NCBI GenBank assembly: GCA_944381115.1
Contig: CALWJV010000015.1
Span: 1-64,000 of the forward strand
Direction of reading: 5' to 3'
DNA from: an uncultured Clostridia bacterium
Lineage (GTDB): Bacteria; Bacillota; Clostridia; Oscillospirales; CAG-272
DNA length: 64,000 nucleotides
Shown here: positions 5,862-43,598 of the stretch, one piece after another
Layout of the letters: every line of letters begins with the position of its first letter
Numbering within the stretch: the stretch's first letter is position 1
Position numbers and translations under genes: made by a program
Notes under the pieces: model-generated
What the model saw: only the letters and a program-made list of their open reading frames with translations
Told to the model about the DNA's origin: nothing
Database searches by the model: none

Positions 5862-6130
5862 AAATATAATTTAAATTAACTTTGAAAGCGTATAAGTAAA
5901 TTAAGGCAAAAAGTTATTTCAGAGACGGAAAAGGCGTAGGCTGTGACCTTTCCGGAACTGCCTTGATTGAATTTCAGCGCCGGAGTTTCCTTTGAAAATT
6001 GCATGATATATGCAAATTAAATAGGATGTAACCGCTGCATTAAAGCGGAAAAGTGCAAAGATCTCTGTCTTTGAAATAGGGTGGTACCGCGGTTTCCCGT
6101 CCCTTTCTTTGACAGGGCTTATTTTTTTGC
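5862..6130 (+). promoter_or_regulatory. T-box leader (Phe, predicted UUC specifier) of pheST
   Basis: The leader carries the T-box sequence AGGGTGGTACCGCGG at 6078-6092, whose TGGT can pair with the ACCA end of uncharged tRNA. Stem I has AGTA on its 5' side and GAATTTCA on the 3' side, with AGGC/GCCT pairing above, so the specifier should be TTC (Phe) at 5973-5975. A short CCCT/AGGG hairpin and a T run follow at about 6101-6130 as the terminator. When tRNA-Phe is uncharged, the antiterminator should form and pheST be transcribed. The downstream genes independently agree with the Phe call. Confidence 0.93.
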
Positions 6131-32441: not shown

Positions 32442-32447
32442 GAAAAA

Positions 32448-32745
32448 AATGCGTAAGAGCAAAGCGAGTAGCGTTTGGACTTATCACAGAGAACTGTCGT
32501 AAGGTGTGAGGACAGAATAAGGAAAAATGTAAAGTTCTCTTTGCAAGCAAGGGCCCGGAAGCCTTATGGGGTGCGTAAGGGTCTTCGGGAACTCCCGTTA
32601 CAGAGAAAAGATATTTTTTGTATCGATAAGGACATTTTTGCAAGAAAATGTTAAAATGAGGTGGTACCACGGGGTATTTTGATATTTCGTCCTCTGTATT
32701 AAAGCGGCTGATTGCTGTCGGATATACAGAGATTTTTCTTTTTTC
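32448..32745 (+). promoter_or_regulatory. T-box leader (predicted Phe, UUC specifier) of paaK-iorA-iorB
   Basis: The T-box sequence GAGGTGGTACCACGG lies at 32659-32673, with TGGT ready to pair with ACCA of tRNA. Stem I is canonical: GCAAAG/CTTTGC at the base, AGTA on the 5' side of the specifier loop, CGTTT/AAATG and CTTAT/ATAAG above, and an AGAGA bulge with a GGTGTGAGG distal loop. The 3' side of the specifier loop reads TAAAGTTCT; by the same spacing as in the pheS leader the specifier is TTC (Phe) at 32535-32537. The terminator is CTCTGTAT / ATACAGAG plus TTTTTCTTTTTT at 32692-32743. The T-box call is firm; the specifier is a fold-by-eye inference. Confidence 0.9.
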
Positions 32746-41582: not shown

Positions 41583-41615
41583 ATTTATATAAATTTAAGT
41601 AAACCTATAAAAATA

Positions 41616-41644
41616 TTGACAAAACAAATAAAATGTATTATAAT
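41616..41644 (+). promoter_or_regulatory. upstream sigma-A promoter in the flotillin leader region
   Basis: A perfect TTGACA box, 17-base spacer and perfect TATAAT box, 173 bases upstream of a second equally good promoter. A transcript from here would include two AT-rich hairpins (TGACT/AGTCA near 41705 and AAAATGT/ACATTTT near 41728) before the riboswitch. Confidence 0.75.
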
Positions 41645-41788
41645 GCAAGTATAATTAAAAAACAAAGCGTATAAGAACTACCGAATTTAAGTAAATTTAG
41701 AAAATGACTTTTATTAGTCACGAGCATAAAATGTTGAAAAAATACATTTTGATGTTAAAAAAATATATTTAAAAATCCATGCAATGTC

Positions 41789-41817
41789 TTGACAAAACAA
41801 TATTTTTTTGGTATAAT
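41789..41817 (+). promoter_or_regulatory. sigma-A promoter directly before the Mn2+-riboswitch-like RNA
   Basis: A perfect TTGACA box, 17-base spacer and perfect TATAAT box. The start near 41824 falls exactly at the 5' edge of the riboswitch. Confidence 0.92.
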
Positions 41818-41823
41818 AAAGTC

Positions 41824-41935
41824 AACAAAAGGGAGTAGTTACATTGCCAAACGGTGGTAATGGGGTCGTTCCGTCAGCACAGCATTAATGCTCGGGACAG
41901 ACAGATTCACTTTCGGAATCGAACAAGACTTTACA
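41824..41935 (+). promoter_or_regulatory. yybP-ykoY-type (Mn2+-sensing) riboswitch
   Basis: The RNA begins AAAGGGAGTAG, the L1 signature, and later has CCGTCAGCAC, the L3 metal-binding signature. P2 (TTAC…GTAA with TGCC/GGTG), P3 (GTTCCG/CGGGAC topped by AGCAT/ATGCT) and a last hairpin GATTC-CTTTCG-GAATC all fold, and the 3' end AACAAGACTTT matches the conserved closing strand. This is the yybP-ykoY architecture, which binds Mn2+. The closing strand is shared with the terminator downstream, so metal binding should prevent termination and turn the flotillin gene on. P1 is weak (about four pairs) if transcription starts at 41824. Confidence 0.88.
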
Positions 41936-41970
41936 TTAAGCATAATTATGCCAAAGTGTAAAGTCTTTTT
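41925..41970 (+). terminator. riboswitch-controlled intrinsic terminator
   Basis: AGACTTTACA at 41926-41935, the riboswitch closing strand, pairs perfectly with TGTAAAGTCT at 41957-41966, followed by TTTT. Its position inside the leader, 84 bases before the flotillin ATG, makes it the expression platform. Confidence 0.85.
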
Positions 41971-42053
41971 GTATTTACGAAGCCGTAGGTAAAAAAACAA
42001 GCATCTTTTGAATGACTTGCGTAAGTTAAAAATAAAAACATAAGGAGAAAAAT

Positions 42054-43454
42054 ATGATAATAGGAATTGTAATTGCAGCAGTGTTATTGATTATTTTGTT
42101 GATTCTCGGTTATATGAAAGCACCTCCGGATACGGCATACATAATTTCCGGACTGGGAAAACGCCGCACACTTATCGGAAAAGCCGGATGGAGACTTCCG
42201 TTTTTTACACGTGTAGACAAACTTTCATTACGAGTAATGCAGGTAGACGTTAAAACATCGGAAGCAGTTCCGACCATAGAGTTTATCAATGTAAACGTTG
42301 ATGGTGTTGCAAATATAAAGATATCTTCAGATCCTGTTTTCCTTGAAAGAGCAGCAGAGTCGTTGCTGGGGATGAAACGCGAGGAGATGATATTCCTTGT
42401 AACGCAGGTGCTTGAAGGTAATATGCGCGAAATAGTCGGCTCTGTGGGTCTCAAAGAAATGGTTCAGGACAGACAGGGAGTCGCAAAAAAGATTACCGAA
42501 AATGTTCTTCCCGACATGGAAAAACTTGGAATTGAAGTTGTAAACTTTAATATACAGAATTTCAAAGACGGAGCAGGAACAATAGAAAATATGGGTATTG
42601 ACAATGTTGAGCAGATAAGGAAGACAGCACAGATAGCAAAGGCAAATGCCCAAAGAGATATTGCAATAGCAACAGCAAAGGCGGAGGAAGAAGCAAACGC
42701 CGTAAGAGTTGAGGCAGAAAAGCGAATAGCAGAGCAAGATGCAGACCTTGAAGTTCAAAAAGCAGATATGCGTGTAAAAGCGGATACGAAGAAGGCAGAG
42801 GCAGACGCAGCATACAGTATTCAACAGGAAAGCCAGCGTAAGACAATTGAAATTACCAAGGCGAATGCAGATATTGCAAGGACCGAAAAAGAGGCAGAAA
42901 TTGCCGAAAAGGAAATTGCAATTAAAGAAAGAAAACTTGACGCAGAGGTCAGAAAACAGGCAGACGCAATGAAGTATAAGGCGGAAAAAGAGGCAGAAGC
43001 CCTCATGATCAAGAGACAAAGAGAGGCTGATGCAAATGCATATGAAGCAATTAAAGAAGCCGAGGCAAAAAAAGCGGAAGCAGATGCTCTGAAATTTTCT
43101 ATGGAACGAGAAGCGGAAGGTATACGTGCCAAAGGTCTTGCAGAGGCTGAAGCAATAGAAAAGAAGGCAGAGGCTCAAAAGAAGATGGGAGAAGCATCAG
43201 TTATTGAAATGTATCTTAATGCGCTTCCCGAAGTTATACGTAATGCAGCGTCCCCGCTTGCACAAACGGATAAGATCGTAATGTACGGTGAAGGCAACTC
43301 AACAAAACTTGTAAAAGACGTAATGAACAGCGCGGGTCAGATCATGGAAGGTATGAAAGCATCTACAGGTATAGATCTTAAGGAACTTATTTCCGGAGTT
43401 GCAAGGGAAAAAAGTGCGGTTGTTAATCCGGAAAAGCCGGTAAATAACATGTAA
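42054..43454 (+). CDS. flotillin-like SPFH-domain protein
   Basis: The 466-residue protein opens with a single hydrophobic segment (about 2-21), which anchors it in the membrane, followed by the SPFH/Band 7 domain (about 25-180; AYIISGLGKRRTLIGKAGW). Residues about 195-390 are a long Ala/Glu/Lys coiled coil with many AEA/EAE repeats. The C-terminal segment resembles flotillin ends (PEVIRNAASPLAQTDKIVMYG). Flotillins form large oligomers that organise fluid membrane microdomains. The usual partner NfeD is not encoded next to it. AAGGAG site before the ATG; the gene lies behind a Mn2+-riboswitch-like leader and is followed by a terminator, so it is monocistronic. Confidence 0.93.
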   Translation: MIIGIVIAAVLLIILLILGYMKAPPDTAYIISGLGKRRTLIGKAGWRLPFFTRVDKLSLRVMQVDVKTSEAVPTIEFINVNVDGVANIKISSDPVFLERAAESLLGMKREEMIFLVTQVLEGNMREIVGSVGLKEMVQDRQGVAKKITENVLPDMEKLGIEVVNFNIQNFKDGAGTIENMGIDNVEQIRKTAQIAKANAQRDIAIATAKAEEEANAVRVEAEKRIAEQDADLEVQKADMRVKADTKKAEADAAYSIQQESQRKTIEITKANADIARTEKEAEIAEKEIAIKERKLDAEVRKQADAMKYKAEKEAEALMIKRQREADANAYEAIKEAEAKKAEADALKFSMEREAEGIRAKGLAEAEAIEKKAEAQKKMGEASVIEMYLNALPEVIRNAASPLAQTDKIVMYGEGNSTKLVKDVMNSAGQIMEGMKASTGIDLKELISGVAREKSAVVNPEKPVNNM

Positions 43455-43494: not shown

Positions 43495-43536
43495 AGAACG
43501 GTTGAATTCCTAAAAACGGATTTTAACCGTTTTTTA
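43495..43536 (+). terminator. intrinsic terminator of the flotillin gene
   Basis: AACGGTT and AACCGTT pair around a 20-base loop that contains a second possible pairing, followed by TTTTT. Confidence 0.75.
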
Positions 43537-43598
43537 ATTGAAGAATAAAATATAAGAAACATAAATTATTACGTTTTTGTAAATTTTAAAAAAAAGAC

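Follow-up and report, generated by a model that had tools for sequence, protein, structure and literature searches.

The window, the whole 64,000-nt stretch of DNA analyzed here, contains a structured leader in front of a flotillin gene from a gut Clostridia genome. The encoded protein matches Band_7 (PF01145, E = 1.8e-22) and PF15975 (E = 8e-6; 26.4 bits compared to a cut-off of 27), and its best NCBIfam model is FloT (E = 1.7e-77). Since the FloT score of 261.5 bits is under the equivalog cut-off of 700, we call the protein a flotillin and do not claim FloT orthology. The SPFH and flotillin domains are also found in Bacillus subtilis FloT and FloA. Transcription is predicted to start near 41824, immediately 5' of the helix P1.1 (Table 1), and 49 of 60 flotillin leaders have a promoter-like match immediately before them. 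The promoter separates the leader from an upstream Xaa-Pro peptidase gene, which we therefore excluded from the transcription unit. Beyond the flotillin gene, at about 43500-43538, there is an inverted repeat accompanied by a T tract, and then rpsB. The first-pass annotation described the gene as apparently monocistronic, and as far as the sequence goes this holds. A second promoter with 12/12 consensus matches is located at 41616-41644, 173 nt 5' of the riboswitch promoter, and has no ORF of its own.

Table 1. Features of the flotillin locus, in window coordinates.
Feature	Position	Strand	Basis or remark
Promoter TTGACA-17-TATAAT, extended -10 (TG)	41789-41817	+	12/12 consensus matches
P1.1 5' strand AAAG, switch helix	41828-41831	+	Pairs with 41929-41932; helix covaries in 38 relatives
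L1 5' strand GGAGUAG	41832-41838	+	GAGUA in 61/61 and 45/45 aligned leaders
P1.2, starting from the last G of L1	41838-41840 with 41922-41924	+	Covariation
P2 hairpin	41842-41862	+	Fold and covariation
P3 arm	41865-41902	+	Covariation in same-genus set and 38-leader set
P3.1, A41899 bulged	41865-41872 with 41894-41902	+	Covariation
L3 5' strand GUCAGCAC, 8 nt	41873-41880	+	Alignment columns and published residue numbering
P3.2	41881-41884 with 41889-41892	+	Covariation
L3 3' side, C, 1 nt	41893	+	Opposite the 8-nt strand
P4 hairpin GATTC/GAATC	41904-41920	+	Seen in fold
Intrinsic terminator, 13-bp outer stem, T5 tract	41925-41970	+	Uses P1.1 3' strand; exclusive with P1.1
L1 3' strand AGA (41926-41928) and P1.1 3' strand CUUU (41929-41932)	41926-41932	+	AGAC in 61/61 and 45/45
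Flotillin gene, 466 aa, SPFH/Band_7 and flotillin domain	42054-43454	+	Domain and family-model matches

The 148-nt leader has a stable fold, its stability exceeding that of 200/200 shuffled sequences (z = -5.0). Its architecture is that of the yybP-ykoY riboswitches (RF00080). The Lactococcus lactis yoaB and Xanthomonas oryzae aptamers share with it the four-way junction, an L1 composed of GGAGUAG and AGA, an 8-nt L3 with an invariant A, and a P1.1 switch helix that shares its 3' strand with the terminator (PMC6754395, PMC9190785). L1, L3, P2, P3, the final GATTC/GAATC hairpin and the closing strand, all listed in the first-pass annotation, are present, and the boundaries of L1 and P1.1 had to be amended. 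P1.1 ends in G right before the L1 strand GGAGUAG, and is thus formed by AAAG and CUUU, only 4 bp in total. The closing stretch GAACAAGACTTT at 41921-41932 overlaps the terminator stem. Its CUUU is located within this stem, in agreement with the dual role that had been suggested for the strand.

Same-genus homologues identified by a DNA search were aligned and used to generate model R1, which located the leader in other genera. A covariance model, R2, drew on 28 leaders, most of them of the flotillin and OAD-beta types and one from a P-type ATPase, with P1.1 and P1.2 set beside L1. The first drawing of P1, from R1, paired AAAGTC at 41818-41823 with GACTTT; it was rejected because these bases precede the predicted start and relatives place P1.1 beside L1. 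A MAFFT alignment of four distinct same-genus leaders revealed compensatory changes in P3.1 and P3.2, with 6 pairs changed on both sides. This count was equalled by 1 of 500 shuffles. Among 38 aligned R2 matches, 91.9% of the cells pair and 25 of the 28 pairs have changed on both sides. The covariation score is 0.689, compared to 0.203 when shuffled and at most 0.139 when slid, in an alignment that was fitted to R2 and therefore leans toward the structure; the four-sequence alignment was not fitted and gave the same sign. Strong covariation is found in five helices, P1.1, P1.2, P2, P3.1 and P3.2, and the pairing that the first-pass annotation had proposed to look for in relatives is therefore present there. 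P4, known from the fold, is outside the structure counted in this test.

The first-pass annotation had said that the lack of a significant RF00080 match would refute its reading, and such a match was indeed lacking. A permissive scan of 41600-42100 produced no RF00080 match to the window leader at E <= 10. A missing match is a poor test of membership, because RF00080 also misses the Escherichia coli alx leader and is above cut-off in 0 of 146 family genomes. Its gathering threshold is moreover a convention of the database and does not define the class biologically. Family leaders before mntP-like and P-type-ATPase genes (as read from translations) plainly carry GGGGAGUAG and the L3 motif, yet score under the cut-off. 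The control genome of L. lactis, the source species of the crystallized yoaB aptamer, gave a match at E <= 1, not at E <= 0.01. The alx leader went undetected even at E <= 10 (401-nt segment; Rfam 15 model), and the model thus appears too narrow. The annotation of alx is that of a gene for a Mn2+ exporter, and its control by a riboswitch is mentioned in the title of a paper cited by PMC10550928.

R2 finds the alx leader in E. coli K-12 just upstream of alx (L145 1375-1500; E = 0.003 in 4 kb). It also recovers classical leaders outside its training set (L001, L049-L053, L055, L057, L058; 20-39 bits), located before mntP-like (MntP) and P-type ATPase genes. L001 (1508-1593; G000:C15:155989-156074) is a second yybP-ykoY leader in the genome of the window, before a P-type cation ATPase, and RF00080 gives it only 14.5 bits. 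It resembles the window leader in GGGGAGUAG, CCGUCA and the helices, and differs in its P1.1, CAUAG/CUUAUG, and its target. SSRC10 (RF02617, Streptococcus sRNA 10) is filed as an sRNA. RF02617 has no match to the window leader, and it scores 37-45 bits on L091 and L094, two class-level relatives. The SSRC10 consensus contains GGGAGuag, CGUCaaUACGg, gaGaCcu and a terminator. Because it shows L1, L3, the closing strand and the terminator, SSRC10 is probably a streptococcal yybP-ykoY leader classed as an sRNA. Much of the Mn2+ riboswitch class is overlooked by RF00080, and surveys that rely on this model therefore undercount members and targets.

The unpaired residues of L1 and L3 provide further evidence. 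All 106 aligned leaders have GAGUA and AGA without variation; 45 of them are from other targets and 61 from the flotillin set, which includes one second, non-flotillin match in L182. This invariance, together with the covariation of five helices and R2 matches common to accepted members, strongly contradicts the idea that the leader is a mere attenuator or terminator stem-loop resembling L1 and L3 by chance. The lack of an RF00080 match and the strength of the terminator alone (-17.2 kcal/mol) would be compatible with such a stem-loop, which we nevertheless consider extremely improbable. The assignment of the window RNA as a yybP-ykoY (Mn2+-type) aptamer, already made in the first-pass annotation, is strong because of its architecture, covariation, conserved L1 and L3 and the recovery of accepted members by R2. 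The window leader departs from the RF00080 class in its target, which is not a Mn2+ exporter, and in its sequence, which is too distant for RF00080 scoring.

L1 of the window leader (GGAGUAG/AGA) and its L3 motif, GUCANNAC, agree with the Mn2+ site known from published work, and the invariant A is present; the stretch at 41871-41880 reads CCGTCAGCAC. In L. lactis, the contacts are G9, U39, C40, A41 (N7), U44 and C45, and the P1.1 switch helix is formed by A3-G7 and C96-C102 (PMC9190785). The contacts in X. oryzae involve A46 and the invariant A48 (PMC6754395). In the alignment columns, A41876 corresponds to the adenosine that is invariant and contacts Mn2+, A41 in L. lactis and A48 in X. oryzae, and the L. 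lactis contact set fits the window L3, which has the same 8-nt length. This position is A in 58/61 leaders of the flotillin set and 45/45 other leaders, and L3 usually reads G U/A C A N N A C. Same-genus relatives have the L3 forms CCAACA and CCGACA. These are within the range of known Mn2+ aptamers because X. oryzae has A45-A46 where others have G-U (PMC6754395). A changed ligand had been considered from these two forms, and was weakened by the X. oryzae A-A and by the wider set, in which CGUCA prevails. Mn2+ is very likely the ligand of the window leader.

Four flotillin leaders have a divergent L3 (L178 15-124, L181 2154-2259, L191 1100-1206 and L200 2115-2222). In this small clade it is CGACUAAACGG, with CGACUAAAGCGG in L200. 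At least three of the four have U at the position expected for the Mn2+-contacting A. Since the A48U substitution in X. oryzae abolishes the stably docked state (PMC6754395), ligand selectivity may have changed in the clade of these leaders.

The window leader retains the invariant A and all L1 and L3 features of Mn2+ aptamers, arguing against a yybP-ykoY architecture with an altered ligand, such as Na+ or a divalent metal other than Mn2+, a kind of change for which variant riboswitch classes provide precedents. The four divergent leaders would fit such a change, as would the large share of OAD-beta proteins among class-level targets. OAD-beta proteins couple to Na+ in known systems. The Na+-I riboswitch is likewise linked to oxaloacetate decarboxylase genes, which it also controls (PMC9337991). 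However, no Na+-riboswitch family matches the window leader, the Na+-I riboswitch (DUF1646 motif) being absent among permissive Rfam matches to it, and most of the other targets are divalent-cation transporters. In addition, the OAD-beta genes under the switch at the examined loci, L226-L230 (G633, G398, G443, G371, G124), have no neighboring decarboxylase alpha subunit in the stretches read, and in L227 a terC-like gene is located directly upstream. These orphan OAD-beta proteins may be Mn2+-related transporters. An altered ligand is unlikely in our estimate, and the Mn2+ assignment is kept below.

The 3' strand of P1.1 is part of the 5' arm of the terminator, and the same overlap and a T tract are found in 59 of 60 flotillin leaders. 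In transcriptional yybP-ykoY switches, Mn2+ stabilizes P1.1 and causes antitermination (PMC6754395). The overlap means that this published mechanism should apply directly, and the leader is therefore predicted to be an ON switch. Transcription from the promoter would begin near 41824. At high cytosolic Mn2+, L1 and L3 of the four-way-junction aptamer would dock around Mg2+ and Mn2+ and stabilize P1.1 (AAAG/CUUU), keeping CUUU from the terminator and allowing RNA polymerase to enter the flotillin gene. When Mn2+ is low, CUUU would instead be taken up into the 13-bp terminator, and transcription would stop at about 41970. We consider it highly probable that this yybP-ykoY Mn2+ riboswitch turns on the monocistronic flotillin gene, with flotillin presumably induced in Mn2+ excess.

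The location of the leader before flotillin, first noted in the window, is real and conserved. The 295 family genomes gave 81 flotillin matches. An R2 match lies 98-210 nt upstream of 28 of these, which represent 10 genera, and the other 53, including one from a same-genus species, have no leader at the threshold used. In named genomes, the leader is present at 49 of 80 flotillin loci, a sample skewed to relatives of a query built mostly from leader-bearing flotillins and including four leaderless loci with less than 250 nt of upstream sequence. The leader-bearing loci are from metagenome-assembled genomes labelled Oscillospiraceae, Oscillibacter, Lawsonibacter, Ruminococcus or unclassified Clostridia, largely from animal guts. 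On the flotillin tree, leader presence requires 14 changes, compared to 25 expected if shuffled, and at least 8 are forced by supported branches. This indicates that the leader was gained or lost repeatedly. The sole same-genus flotillin lacking it (L018 1355-1490; G002) has another structured-looking leader that starts AAAGGGGATAGGCGAGG, perhaps degenerate or a different element.

The many relatives with flotillin but no leader could suggest that a true Mn2+ riboswitch acts mainly through an unrecognized leader feature or a neighboring gene. In all 10 genera, however, flotillin directly follows the leader on the same strand, at 98-210 nt, whereas the upstream neighbors vary among loci. We give an output other than flotillin very little weight, and take flotillin as the controlled gene.

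Across the class, R2 has matches in 133 of 391 genomes. Among the best 30 class-wide matches, flotillin is the target only in the window; the others precede genes for P-type ATPases, OAD-beta proteins, Na/Ca-exchanger-type transporters and one CitMHS-type transporter, assigned mostly from translations with six confirmed by Pfam. It thus seems that a widespread Mn2+ switch was recruited to flotillin within a particular lineage. The leader belongs to a riboswitch class already known, and its target is conserved and was not expected. Flotillin as a target of a Mn2+ riboswitch, and riboswitch control of the B. subtilis flotillins, were not found in the literature searched, which leaves out most subscription journals.

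To our knowledge, Mn2+ homeostasis is not an established role of flotillin, and we know of no agreed primary function for bacterial flotillins. The conserved leader points to a link between Mn2+ sensing and membrane organization that has not been described before. A conserved, metal-specific switch would offer a genetic hint as to the conditions under which a cell needs more flotillin, and its placement makes the question of flotillin function directly testable. The proteins tabulated as recovered together with MeeF and MeeY, the TerC Mn2+ proteins of B. subtilis, include FloA and FloT (PMC10550928). The switch before flotillin agrees with this recovery, which makes scaffolding of Mn2+ exporters or metalating secretion complexes by flotillin plausible. 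Flotillin would perhaps scaffold or stabilize Mn2+ exporters in the membrane. The formation of mycobacterial metal-efflux foci without flotillin (PMC9374683) speaks against such scaffolding, and it led us to reject a connection through PacL metal-efflux platforms. We tentatively suggest, with somewhat less than even confidence, that in Oscillospiraceae-like gut Clostridia flotillin is a dedicated effector of Mn2+ excess, raised by the riboswitch and organizing exporters or metalated secretion complexes, and that the small clade with the exchanged adenosine may sense something different.

Two T-box leaders are located elsewhere in the window. The first, at 5873-6107, precedes pheS-like and pheT-like genes. 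The second, at 32445-32697, precedes a phenylacetate-CoA-ligase-like gene followed by an indolepyruvate-oxidoreductase-like gene.
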